This document shows positions 3,337 to 43,330 of a stretch of 44,736 nucleotides of DNA, piece after piece. The notes under the pieces were generated by a model. It did no database searches and was not told the origin of the DNA. It saw only the letters and a list, made by a program, of their open reading frames with translations. The stretch is from Parcubacteria group bacterium Athens0714_16 (GTDB taxonomy: Bacteria > Patescibacteriota > Minisyncoccia > Phycocordibacterales > 21-14-all-36-13): contig VMGX01000002.1 in assembly GCA_007376805.1 (NCBI GenBank), positions 1-44,736 of the forward strand, given 5' to 3'. The position numbers and the translations under genes were made by a program. The number at the start of each line of letters is the position of its first letter. The first letter of the stretch is position 1.

Positions 3337-4860
3337 TCAATTTACCATACTTCTTATCCATTTAAACAAAAATTCATTCCTCCCGCGCTGGAACAGAACA
3401 ACGTCCCCACCCAAAAGTATGTTGTCTAAATCAATGTGTGCCTCAAAAATTGAATCGTATTCCTTTATATATTTTTCAAGAAAATTATTTTGCAAAAGTC
3501 CTTCTTTTATAAATTTACACGCTTCGTTTTTTTCTAAAATAACCATGTCGGCGACTCCGGCAAGTTTTTTACCAATTTCTAAATGCAATTCCCTGTTTTT
3601 CTCCCCAACTTCTGCCAATCCGGGGGTTACATAAATTTTTCTTCTTTTAACAAACAAGGAAAGTGCGTCTATTGCCTCTCTCACCCCGTCTGGATTTCCG
3701 TTGTAACTATCATCTATTATTAAAATATTATTTTTTGCTTTTATTGCCTGCAAACGATGTTCGGGTTGCTGAAGATTTTCCACTTTTTCTTTAATTTCAA
3801 CAAAACTCATCCCAAATTCTTTCCCCACAATCATGCAGGACATTACAATCCCTATAATATAATTCGACAAAAAGGGTGTTTTAATTTGCCCAAGATTTTC
3901 AAATTCGTCATTAATTTCAAAATATATTCCAGAGCCATCTTCGTAGAAAATTTTATCTTTAAATCTATAATTTGAAAGCGGATTATTTTTTGAACTATAA
4001 AAATATATTTTTTGGTCCTTTAAATATTCCCTGAAATTTTGAACAACTAATTCGTTGTCTGCATTTAATACAACTGTCCCATTTTTTTTACAGTTCTGTA
4101 TTATTTCAAACTTTGCATTTATTGTGTTTTCTATTTTTTTAAATCTTTCAAGATGGCTTTCATTTATACCAGTTAAAATACTCATATCTGGTTGCAAAAC
4201 CAAATCACAAAGTTCTTTTATGTCCCCGATTTTATACGCCGCCATTTCAACAATAAAAATTTCTACACTCTCGTCTAATTTTTTATTTATTAATTGAGAA
4301 ATTCCCAAAATCGTATTTTTATTCCCTTCCGTTTTTAAAATATTAAATTTTTTCGACAAAACAAAACTTATCGCGTCCTTCATTGTTGTTTTTCCATAAC
4401 TTCCGGTTATGGCAATTACTTTTATATTCTTGCGATATTTTTTGATCTTATTTTTAGCCCTTAAAATAACGATTTTTTTGAAAATAAAATCGAATGGGAA
4501 AAAAATGATGGTAGAAAAAATTAAAAAAACAAAAAACACCGGTGACAAAGCAAAAAATAAAACCAGTAATGCTATGATTGGAAATATAATGCTCAAATTA
4601 AATGTATGAACAATTAAAAAAGAAAAAACCAGCTGAAAAAAAATGGACGAGAAAAAAATTATTTTTGCTTTAGATGTCCATTCTATTTTTTTACCAGTGA
4701 CAACCTTGAGTTTGTTTTTTAAAAAAAATCTTATATCAGCAAAAAATCTATCCGTTGAATAATCCTGAAACTGTAGGAGGTATGTTTCATAAATTAAAAT
4801 AGAAACTATTTTTTTTATAATTTTTTGAAAAACATTTATTTTTTGTATTTTTTGTCTCAT
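3337..4860 (-). CDS. murF: MurF-like UDP-MurNAc-tripeptide:D-Ala-D-Ala ligase with N-terminal membrane region
   Basis: VIAITGSYGKTTMKD, NKNTILGI, HLERF, IIDDSYNGNPDGVREAIDAL; ~135 aa hydrophobic N-terminus. Confidence 0.85.
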   Translation of the reverse strand: MRQKIQKINVFQKIIKKIVSILIYETYLLQFQDYSTDRFFADIRFFLKNKLKVVTGKKIEWTSKAKIIFFSSIFFQLVFSFLIVHTFNLSIIFPIIALLVLFFALSPVFFVFLIFSTIIFFPFDFIFKKIVILRAKNKIKKYRKNIKVIAITGSYGKTTMKDAISFVLSKKFNILKTEGNKNTILGISQLINKKLDESVEIFIVEMAAYKIGDIKELCDLVLQPDMSILTGINESHLERFKKIENTINAKFEIIQNCKKNGTVVLNADNELVVQNFREYLKDQKIYFYSSKNNPLSNYRFKDKIFYEDGSGIYFEINDEFENLGQIKTPFLSNYIIGIVMSCMIVGKEFGMSFVEIKEKVENLQQPEHRLQAIKAKNNILIIDDSYNGNPDGVREAIDALSLFVKRRKIYVTPGLAEVGEKNRELHLEIGKKLAGVADMVILEKNEACKFIKEGLLQNNFLEKYIKEYDSIFEAHIDLDNILLGGDVVLFQRGRNEFLFKWIRSMVN

Positions 4861-4980
4861 CCCGTTTAGAAGTAGAAAATCTTTAGATTTCCGTAGTTAA
4901 TTTTAATAAAAAATGACTTTTTGATATATAACATTCTACTATTTCCCGTGATTATATTAACTGTATGACTTCTAACGGGA
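4860..4980. mobile_element. MITE-like element copy 1 (TCCCGTTTAGAAGT...GACTTCTAACGGGA)
   Basis: Terminal inverted repeats; near-identical inverted copy at 22439-22558; flanking TTCA/CTCA. Confidence 0.8.
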
Positions 4981-21901: not shown

Positions 21902-22447
21902 ATGTCCGGTCATAATAAATGGTCAAAAATAAAAAGAAAAAAGGAAGTTACCGACTCACAAAAAAGTCGTGTCTTCACAAAGCTTGTTAGACTAATACAA
22001 GTTGAATCAAAAAAGGCAAACGGGGACACGAACGCGCCCGGACTAAAGACGTCCATAGAAAAAGCAAAAAAAGAAAACATGCCAAACGACAACATAGAAA
22101 GAGCTGTTAAAAAAGGTGCTGGCTCTGAAGGTTCTGGTATGGAATCTATTACATACGAAGCATACGGCCCATCTGGAATTGGAATAATAATTGAGACATT
22201 GACAGATAGTAGAAACAGAACATTCGCCGAGATAAAACACATCTTAACAAAAAATAATTCATCAATAGCTCAGATTGGTGCTGTAAAATGGGCATTTGAA
22301 AAAAACAATGCGGGAGGATGGATACCAAAGACGGTTGTAGATGTAAACGAAGAGGATTTAATTAAACTTGAAAAACTTGTAGATAACTTGGAAGAAAATG
22401 AAGATATACAAGAAGTTTTTGTAAATGTAAAAAATGAGTCCCGTTAG
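21902..22447 (+). CDS. yebC: YebC/PmpR family protein lacking the central domain
   Basis: MSGHNKWSKIKRKK...RVFTKLVRLI, KAKKENMPNDNIERAVKKG, YEAYGPSGIGIIIETLTDSRNRTFAEIKHILTKN; then jumps to IPKTVVDVNEEDLIKLEKLVDNLEENEDIQEVF. Confidence 0.9.
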   Translation: MSGHNKWSKIKRKKEVTDSQKSRVFTKLVRLIQVESKKANGDTNAPGLKTSIEKAKKENMPNDNIERAVKKGAGSEGSGMESITYEAYGPSGIGIIIETLTDSRNRTFAEIKHILTKNNSSIAQIGAVKWAFEKNNAGGWIPKTVVDVNEEDLIKLEKLVDNLEENEDIQEVFVNVKNESR

Positions 22448-22558
22448 AAGTCATACGGTTAATATAATTACAGGAAGTAAAAGAATGTTATATATAAAAA
22501 AGTCATTATTTATTAAAATTAACTACGGAAATCTAAAGATTTCCTACTTCTAACGGGA
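22439..22558. mobile_element. MITE-like element copy 2 (TCCCGTTAGAAGT...ACTTCTAACGGGA) with TGAG target duplication
   Basis: 13-bp TIRs; TGAG at 22435-22438 and 22559-22562; inverted copy at 4860-4980. Confidence 0.88.
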
Positions 22559-22581
22559 TGAGGCTGAATAGTAAAAATCCA

Positions 22582-23058
22582 ATGAAAGTTTTGGCGATAG
22601 ACCCCGGTTATGAAAGAATCGGAATAGCTGTTTTAGAGCGCCTCCCTAACAAAAAGGAGGTTCTTTTATATTCTGATTGTTTTAAAACATCACCAAAATT
22701 ATCTCCAGAGGAAAGATTATTTTTAATCGGAGAAGAAATAACAAAAATTATAAAAAAATTTAAACCAACCAGCTGTGCTCTAGAAAAATTATTTTTTAAT
22801 ACGAACCAAAAAACAGTAATGATGGTTTCCCAGGTTAGAGGAATGATCATTTATCAGGCGATGTTAAATAAAATGAGTGTGTTTGAATATAATCCGTCTG
22901 AAATTAAAATAGCAATAACCGGTTACGGGAGAAGCACAAAATATCAAATAACAGATATGGTAAAACGACTGATTTGTATTGATAAAAAAATTTCCTATGA
23001 CGATGAGTTTGATGCCATAGCCGTTGGACTAACTTGTCTAGCGTCTGAAAAGTTTTAA
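22582..23058 (+). CDS. ruvC: Crossover junction endodeoxyribonuclease RuvC
   Basis: MKVLAIDPGYERIGIAVLE, ALEKLFFNTNQKTVMMVSQVRG, YDDEFDAIAVGLT; start placed at the internal ATG (the longer ORF starts at the element end, 22558). Confidence 0.93.
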   Translation: MKVLAIDPGYERIGIAVLERLPNKKEVLLYSDCFKTSPKLSPEERLFLIGEEITKIIKKFKPTSCALEKLFFNTNQKTVMMVSQVRGMIIYQAMLNKMSVFEYNPSEIKIAITGYGRSTKYQITDMVKRLICIDKKISYDDEFDAIAVGLTCLASEKF

Positions 23059-41550: not shown

Positions 41551-43330
41551 CAGCTGCTTCTTTTAAATCCTCCTTAAGGTATCCTATGTTTTCTCTGATA
41601 TCCTTCATTTTGATTTTTATGTCTGCTTTATTAACGTCTGTAAGTGCTACACCCGAAGGATCAGTGCCCGTTCGAAGTTGCTCCATGTAACCTTTCAAAT
41701 CTTTTATTTCACTTGCCAACTCTACTCTTATTCCCGACTCTTTTTCTATCATAGCACCCGCCTGCACATTTTTAGACATTTTTCCAAGCGGTGAGCTTGG
41801 ATCAACGGCATTTCCGCCAGCCCAAATTGGTTTTTGCAAAACTTCTTTTGCGTATCTTTCCTTTTGTGCTTCATTTATTCCAAACATCTCACCCATCTTC
41901 TTTCTTTCTTCTCTCGCAGTTTCTTTTACTGCTTCTTTAAATCCGCCCCCACCACCCGCCTTTCCAAATGAAATACCCTTAGCTAAACCGAGTGTCTTTT
42001 TACCAAGCTCTGTTCCTCTCACATCAAAGCTTGCTTTCTCTGTTCCTTTTAGTCCCCTCAATGCAAACCTTGCACCAAGTCCTTTTATTCCGCCCTTTGA
42101 TCCGGCTTCAGCCAACCCCTCTCCTGTCTTAGATAATATTGCAGAAGCTCCTCTGCCAGCAATCCCACGTCCTGCAATCGCTAATCCGCCAAGAGTCGCG
42201 GCACCAGCAGCACCAAGCGCCATTTTACCGACAGTACTTGCAAAACCAGCAACTTTTCCACCGAGTTCACCACTAAATTGTTTTGATAATTTTACAGCCG
42301 TTAAAATTAATCCAATGATAATTACGAAATTAAAATAATATGTAACATCCATGGCATCTTTTGTTCCCAATGTATTTCTGAACAAGCCATCACTACTTGT
42401 TATTTGTGCAATTATGTAAAAGAAAAATAAAAATACAGGAGCTACAAGTGTTTGATTTATTAATGTCGTCCACCACTTTTTTGATTGCTCTGCAAATTTT
42501 GGAGACAAACTCCCGATGAACCCTATCGGTGACAAAATTAATAAAATTATAAACGAAACGATTCGAACAACAAAAAGCATTGATGCTAAGAAGAATGCGT
42601 ATATTGTTACAGACATAAGAGTTGCTCTCACTGCAGCAGATATAAAATTTGTGTATCCAAACCCTGATGGCTCATATGATTCTGATATTTTAGACACCTT
42701 CATTACAAGAGCACCGAGCCCACCACTATTACCTTGTGTAACAATCGCATTTCTAAATGTTAATGCAACTATATTTCCCGCATCAATTATTAGTCCGGCG
42801 ATGTACATACTGAAATTTATAAGTATTATTGCCACCACCATATTTGCCAGAGTTTTCTTTGAGGCAGCACCATCCGTTCCAAGTATTGTGCTTATTGCTA
42901 TATAAAGGAGAATAAAAATAAAAACCATATTTACCAAGTCCCTAACGATAACCCACCCAATTTTTATTCCAGGAATTGTGCTTATGTTTGTCATGTCCAA
43001 AGAAAAAGTAATTGAATGGTCTAACAAATTTCCCATTACTGTAAGTATCCAAGAAAGAATCGGAATCCAGACAAATTCAACAAGCCAAGACAAAACTTCT
43101 GCTGCAATTTGGCCGATGGTTCCTGAAGTTAGATCAAGTACACCCATAACAATGTCTCCAAACCAACCGGCGTGTGCAACATTTGAAGGAATTAAAAATA
43201 GAAGAAATACGAACAAGCCATATTTGGCAAGTTTTAGAAGTATTTCCCTGTTAAATAATTTTGTCTTGGACAAAATTTCTGCTTTGCAGAATTTAACAGG
43301 GTGAATTTTATTTTGTAATAAGTTTTCCAT
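41528..43330 (-). CDS. VirB6/TrbL-like polytopic T4SS membrane protein
   Basis: Multiple TM segments (FVWIPILSWILTVMGNLL, WVIVRDLVNMVFIFILLYIAISTIL, AFFLASMLFVVRIVSFIILLILSPIGFIGS), Gly/Ala-rich C-terminus. Confidence 0.8.
   Translation of the reverse strand: MENLLQNKIHPVKFCKAEILSKTKLFNREILLKLAKYGLFVFLLFLIPSNVAHAGWFGDIVMGVLDLTSGTIGQIAAEVLSWLVEFVWIPILSWILTVMGNLLDHSITFSLDMTNISTIPGIKIGWVIVRDLVNMVFIFILLYIAISTILGTDGAASKKTLANMVVAIILINFSMYIAGLIIDAGNIVALTFRNAIVTQGNSGGLGALVMKVSKISESYEPSGFGYTNFISAAVRATLMSVTIYAFFLASMLFVVRIVSFIILLILSPIGFIGSLSPKFAEQSKKWWTTLINQTLVAPVFLFFFYIIAQITSSDGLFRNTLGTKDAMDVTYYFNFVIIIGLILTAVKLSKQFSGELGGKVAGFASTVGKMALGAAGAATLGGLAIAGRGIAGRGASAILSKTGEGLAEAGSKGGIKGLGARFALRGLKGTEKASFDVRGTELGKKTLGLAKGISFGKAGGGGGFKEAVKETAREERKKMGEMFGINEAQKERYAKEVLQKPIWAGGNAVDPSSPLGKMSKNVQAGAMIEKESGIRVELASEIKDLKGYMEQLRTGTDPSGVALTDVNKADIKIKMKDIRENIGYLKEDLKEAAGEAKKKD
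43246..43301. repeat. Palindromic element inside the N-terminal coding region of the VirB6-like gene
   Basis: CCCTGTTAAAT-aattttgtcttggacaaaatTTCTGCtttGCAGA-ATTTAACAGGG. Confidence 0.75.

Follow-up and report, generated by a model that had tools for sequence, protein, structure and literature searches.

Introduction

Prokaryotic transposons are classed by a few types of enzyme: DDE, DEDD and HUH enzymes, tyrosine and serine recombinases, and the casposase. The described systems closest to the element family treated here are the bacterial MITEs, such as the Correia elements and MITEAba12, which like it are short and gene-less, carry perfect terminal inverted repeats (TIRs) and a short target duplication, and occur in several near-identical copies. 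They differ from it in that the matching gene-bearing element of the present family encodes a GIY-YIG nuclease and not a DDE transposase, and in its preference for ATGA start codons and its co-varying inner stem. REP/BIME repeats with their RAYT proteins (Y1 HUH) share with it a subterminal hairpin, an adjacent RTAG and a likely folded intermediate, whereas the present family has 12-bp TIRs that pair end to end and a target duplication, and RAYT genes do not lie within its TIRs. Free-standing GIY-YIG homing endonuclease genes and UPF0213 proteins have the same catalytic domain as the gene-bearing elements, and the solved structures nearest by sequence to their ORFs are UPF0213 proteins (PDB 1zg2 and 1ywl); unlike homing genes, however, the elements are bounded by lineage-specific TIRs and duplications and occupy many non-allelic start codons. 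Rickettsia palindromic elements, palindromic repeats of 100-150 bp, permit read-through and can affect proteins. They resemble the present family as short palindromic repeats able to alter proteins, but this family inserts for the most part where genes begin and duplicates its target, and it has a known gene-bearing relative. Insertion sequences in the rRNA genes of CPR bacteria, the same bacterial group as that of the family, contain rare GIY-YIG ORFs judged to fall outside spread by homing (PMC11270868), which agrees with a transposon-like life, although the elements described here have TIRs and sit at the starts of protein genes. The literature searched, which included few subscription papers or preprints, contained no account of GIY-YIG elements bounded by TIRs, and the TIR letters of this family did not appear there in a relevant setting either.

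Results

The window, that is the whole stretch of DNA analysed, covers the initial 44.7 kb of contig C6 of a Patescibacteria-type genome of 632 kb in 19 contigs (the source genome). At the junction of yebC and ruvC it contains an element (Table 1) that the original prediction had described as MITE-like with a 4-bp TGAG duplication at the yebC end, a description borne out by its TIRs, its TGAG flanks, its five copies and a filled and empty pair found for its family. The TIRs are complementary in 13 of 13 bp (100%) and spaced 94 nt apart, and the size of 120 bp, without an ORF, lies within the range of MITEs (<~600 bp). The + strand corresponds to the sense orientation of the gene-bearing relatives, with the inner hairpin adjoining the right end, and the 120-nt strand folds at -28.9 kcal/mol compared to -15.4 kcal/mol when shuffled (z -4.3, 0/200 shuffles). 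An Rfam scan of the window returned tRNAs only, none of them at the element. Two other identities were considered and rejected: an integron attC site (RYYYAAC ... GTTRRRY), the element having GTT on the left and AAC on the right and letters that misfit the boxes, and a group I intron, ruled out on anatomy.

Table 1. Features at the yebC-ruvC junction and the second copy of the element in the window.
Feature	Position	Strand	Remarks
Non-autonomous MITE-like element, 120 bp, TCCCG...CGGGA	22439..22558	+	TIRs, TGAG flanks, 5 genome copies
Left terminal inverted repeat TCCCGTTAGAAGT, family core CCCGTTAGARRY	22439..22451	+	
Right terminal inverted repeat ACTTCTAACGGGA	22546..22558	-	
Target-site duplication TGAG, left copy	22435..22438	+	
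Target-site duplication TGAG, right copy	22559..22562	+	
Subterminal hairpin TACGGAAATCTAAAGATTTCC, beside right TIR	22524..22544	+	Counterpart of the co-varying inner stem of GIY-YIG elements
yebC, C-terminus changed by insertion	21902..22447	+	Now ...NESR-stop
ruvC, intact, start ATGAAAGTTTTGGCG	22582..23058	+	
Second copy of the 120-bp family within the window, 121 bp	4860..4980	-	

As had been predicted, yebC now stops inside the element, at a TAG within the left TIR. Removal of the element and one TGAG in silico lets the gene end in ...VKNEAE-stop (GCT GAA TAG, stop at 22569-22571), and the predicted empty allele of the junction reads AAAAATGAGGCTGAATAG. In most of 28 readable relatives, the nearest being of the same order, YebC ends in NAE followed by a stop (GCN GAR TAA/TAG), and ruvC is often found close downstream. 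The reconstructed ...NEAE-stop is thus independently supported, and the expectation of a natural yebC stop upon excision holds. The proposed search for an empty site succeeded in part: the relatives show NAE-stop at yebC and a pair within the family shows the 4-bp duplication, but at the yebC locus itself the evidence is indirect, the nearest genomes compared being of the same order. Taken as a whole, insertion of the 120-bp element at the end of yebC is well supported.

The element is not a chance arrangement, since four further full-length copies with 91-92% identity are present in the same genome, on C1, C6 (in the window), C7 and C12. Other short elements of the source genome have only the TIR in common with it, and phage records searched with the 120-bp sequence gave AT-rich matches at chance level only. 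A separate 58-bp inverted-repeat element is located at 43245-43302 of the window (TCCCTGTTAAAT ... ATTTAACAGGGT); its TIR is that of a second GIY-YIG class (ACCCTGTTAAAT), and a gene matching this class lies on C1 of the source genome, at about 129093-129341.

Mobility of the family is shown by two sister species, G278 and G297, with ~96% DNA identity at shared elements. An element of the family (TIR CCCGTTAGAGAC) is present in G278 and absent from G297 between flanks that are 97% identical, the empty site reading AAAATACTCATAACAC and the filled one AAAATACTCA[T CCCG...CGGG A]CTCATAACAC. The insertion of 111 nt consists of a 107-bp element and 4 bp of CTCA (TGAG on the other strand), so that a target duplication relative to an empty site, as expected of a MITE, is seen directly for a family member, and the element has entered an open reading frame at its ATGAG start codon. 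In a second pair the element is present in G297 and missing from G278, and its right junction coincides exactly with an ATG start; the duplication there is imperfect because the left flank has a 3-nt length change and one substitution. At the start codon of ruvX, a 278-bp element is found in two congeners while the site is empty in others.

Across the order, the pattern TCATCCCGTTAGA has 445 occurrences, spread over 88 of 297 genomes, compared to 2 of its reversed control among the matches listed. Positions 1-9 of the TIR are nearly invariant among 118 distinct short elements, whereas positions 10-12 vary among copies; there, the two ends of one copy agree in 95-97% of cases against ~50% expected, an agreement that stops at position 13. 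The two ends of each copy behave as one unit. Exact duplications of at least 4 bp flank 64 of 116 short elements (mean 18 and maximum 28 with flanks re-paired between copies), and the family prefers ATGA and start codons as targets. A strict inner-hairpin pattern is matched by only 37 of the 118. Four short elements ~1.2 kb apart lie in an apparent cell-wall gene cluster of G074 (C9:31000-37500, L068), each immediately 5' of a start codon (mraY-, ftsW- and murG-like ORFs). The nearly complete (~98%) G164 has ten TIR matches and elements of 96-99 bp with the TIR CCCGTTAGAGTTTT (L094-L098), and lacks matches both to GIY-YIG (profile A2, E<=1e-15) and to Y1 transposases.

At loci L011 and L033 (source genome C19) a GIY-YIG ORF (PF01541) lies between TIRs of the same core, the element at L033 on C19 being the one gene-bearing GIY-YIG element with a matching core in that genome. 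Such elements measure ~275-280 bp and consist of 12-bp TIRs and a single ORF of ~87 codons running nearly from end to end. The match to PF01541 reaches 70.9 bits (E 1.1e-19), and the conserved residues Y, YTG, R and E are invariant or nearly so in 77 elements. A profile built from five of these ORFs (A2) has matches in 141 of the 297 genomes of the order. Searched against GTDB species genomes it gave 455 relatives, of which 80 were kept; these are mostly from Patescibacteria with some from Omnitrophota, Planctomycetes, WOR-3 and others, the rarer ones possibly reflecting bin contamination. No relative was confirmed in the viral contigs searched. Judged by its sequence, the GIY-YIG ORF is under purifying selection, being intact in 78 of 80 cases with an entropy by codon position of 0.72/0.53/1.35.

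The association of gene and TIR is close. Of 101 located GIY-YIG genes, 87 are preceded by CCCGTTAGA, at a distance of mostly 21-32 nt from the YVY motif, and followed by TCTAACGGG, the end of which lies mostly 251 nt beyond YVY, and in a test free of any TIR sequence 100 of 119 genes lie within an inverted repeat of at least 11/12 nt, compared to 4 with shuffled flanks. The TIRs fall into classes (CCCGTTAGA, CCCGTACGA, ACCCTGTTAAAT and others) which change only 3 times on a GIY-YIG tree built with the TIR-coded residues left out, against a shuffled mean of 17.3, the tree having few columns and therefore many forks without resolution. The ORF runs into the right TIR (TCT CTA ACG GGA TGA, SLTG-stop) and has the TGA of the flank as its stop codon, and in many copies the left flank ATGAA contributes an ATG in the frame of the nuclease. 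In 64 of 94 entries, a few loci being represented by two, a downstream ORF of at least 50 aa has the right flank as its start codon. These ORFs have many functions, including, by their N-termini, topA, murG, pyrG, ruvX, frr, dnaJ and fmt. When the 77 aligned elements were scanned for covariation, the strongest complementary pairs fell along a single diagonal, which corresponds to a stem of codons 22-26 with 75-79; this inner stem, recovered from base-pair covariation alone, lies inside the coding sequence and has its counterpart beside the right TIR of the window element.

The short and the gene-bearing forms have the TIR core, the target and the duplication in common and, where the inner stem is present, also its spacing to the right TIR. 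The left arm in such copies is 71-74 nt long in short elements and 75 nt in nuclease-bearing ones. The short copies may be deletion derivatives of the nuclease-bearing form; their left arms, however, align with the nuclease gene no better than shuffles, and have therefore either decayed beyond recognition or belong to copies that arose otherwise.

Discussion

The family consists of widespread, very small mobile elements, the ~280-bp members of which have a GIY-YIG gene as their sole gene. A transposase with matching TIRs had been anticipated for the 120-bp element; one of a classical type was not found, and the gene that does carry matching TIRs encodes a GIY-YIG nuclease. This gene is the only recurrent one seen within the TIRs and makes the longer form, a putative transposase-encoding partner with the same TIR core, a candidate for the autonomous partner expected of a MITE. 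Among 40 genomes that match GIY-YIG strongly, 21 have at least six TIR matches, compared to 11 among the 257 others (Fisher p about 1e-13, in a test that ignores phylogeny and in which the GIY-YIG copies themselves add TIR matches). With the purifying selection on its ORF and the TIR classes following its lineage, the GIY-YIG protein is probably the mobilising enzyme of the family, although at E<=1e-15 four TIR-rich genomes (G074, G164, G170 and G269) gave no match to GIY-YIG. The cuts made by known GIY-YIG enzymes have short 3' overhangs, from which a duplication of 4-5 bp is not readily explained.

The course of events may be envisaged as follows. Insertion takes place preferentially at start codons (ATGA), and at the present locus the element entered ATGAG where the end of yebC overlaps the start of ruvC, with duplication of 4 bp, a step which is shown for the family and well supported here. 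In the gene-bearing form the duplication provides one ATG for the GIY-YIG ORF (ATGAATCCCGTTAGAGAT, MNPVRD...) and another for the downstream gene, the translation of which can continue since its start overlaps the nuclease stop (GGGATGA). The nuclease would recognise the folded ends and cut both element and target, and would thereby mobilise its own copy as well as short gene-less copies such as that between yebC and ruvC. With some caution, we lean towards regarding the ~275-bp elements as a new class of DNA transposon, with GIY-YIG as the putative transposase, two-stem folded ends and a start-codon targeting that keeps both starts, of which the yebC-ruvC element would be a gene-less member.

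One alternative explanation is a REP/BIME-like nature of the elements, with a host RAYT (TnpA_REP, Y1/HUH) mobilising them in trans and the GIY-YIG gene as a passenger or a hitch-hiking homing nuclease. The subterminal RTAG and the hairpin adjoining the TIR recall REP, the fold of the element suggests a single-stranded intermediate, and 183 of 297 genomes, among them 30 of 32 TIR-rich ones, have a RAYT-type Y1_Tnp match. This is nevertheless unlikely: of 27 Y1_Tnp loci in 12 TIR-rich genomes not one lies between TIRs, and a TIR is rare even in their neighbourhood, in contrast to the GIY-YIG genes, and the TIR-rich and nearly complete G164 is without a Y1_Tnp match. Moreover, Y1 elements are not known to make a target duplication, whereas one of 4 bp is present here.

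Slightly less probable again is that an ordinary DDE-type insertion sequence, absent from the assemblies or highly diverged, supplies the transposase and that the GIY-YIG elements are themselves non-autonomous carriers. TIRs with a 4-5-bp duplication are classical DDE anatomy, and the four TIR-rich genomes without GIY-YIG are in line with this view; in the TIR-paired stretches of up to 2.5 kb examined, however, the recurrent internal ORF is GIY-YIG, the longer pairs, few in number, resemble two adjacent short elements separated by host genes, and the TIR sequence follows the GIY-YIG lineage. A reading of the GIY-YIG genes as free-standing homing endonuclease genes that propagate through the repair of double-strand breaks, with the short copies as decayed remnants, is quite improbable in spite of the GIY-YIG fold (PF01541) and the recurrence of topA, murG, pyrG and ruvX downstream, because most insertion sites are non-allelic with different downstream genes, the varied sites point to insertions beyond long homologous recognition sites, and homing does not generate TIRs with a target duplication. 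That the yebC-ruvC junction holds a structured RNA or terminator instead of a mobile element, as the strong fold and covarying stems could suggest, is hardly credible given the copies at unrelated loci, the presence and absence between sister species, the target duplication and the lack of an Rfam match in this stretch.

If mobilisation by the GIY-YIG nuclease is true, TIR elements with this enzyme as their only gene would add a chemistry to those used in transposition and would help to explain the many small GIY-YIG genes of Patescibacteria. They would also be insertion units of very small size that favour start codons, ~275 bp being among the smallest conceivable sizes of an autonomous transposon. 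Gene-dense, reduced genomes can tolerate such insertions, since duplication of ATGA keeps the downstream gene open to translation. The categorical newness depends on this role of the nuclease; should it fail, the finding is a MITE family.

Some relatives of the gene deviate in their ends or sites. In MAGs labelled Omnitrophota, Thermodesulfovibrionia and Stahlbacteria (L159, L172, L195, L199 and L216) the element ends in C/G (CCCCGTTAG ... CTAACGGGG), and with TAAA or TGAA as the duplication the ORF can have TAA as its stop codon. A broken GIY-YIG ORF is found outside the window in rRNA-like sequence of the source genome (G000 C6:105809-106017; L036, L037), possibly an rRNA-gene insertion. Another GIY-YIG subfamily (L313, L347, L348 and L349) ends directly at tRNA genes (GCTCAGTTGGTAGAGC), and at L347 the 5' part of the tRNA is found on both sides, as if the gene had been inserted into a tRNA gene.
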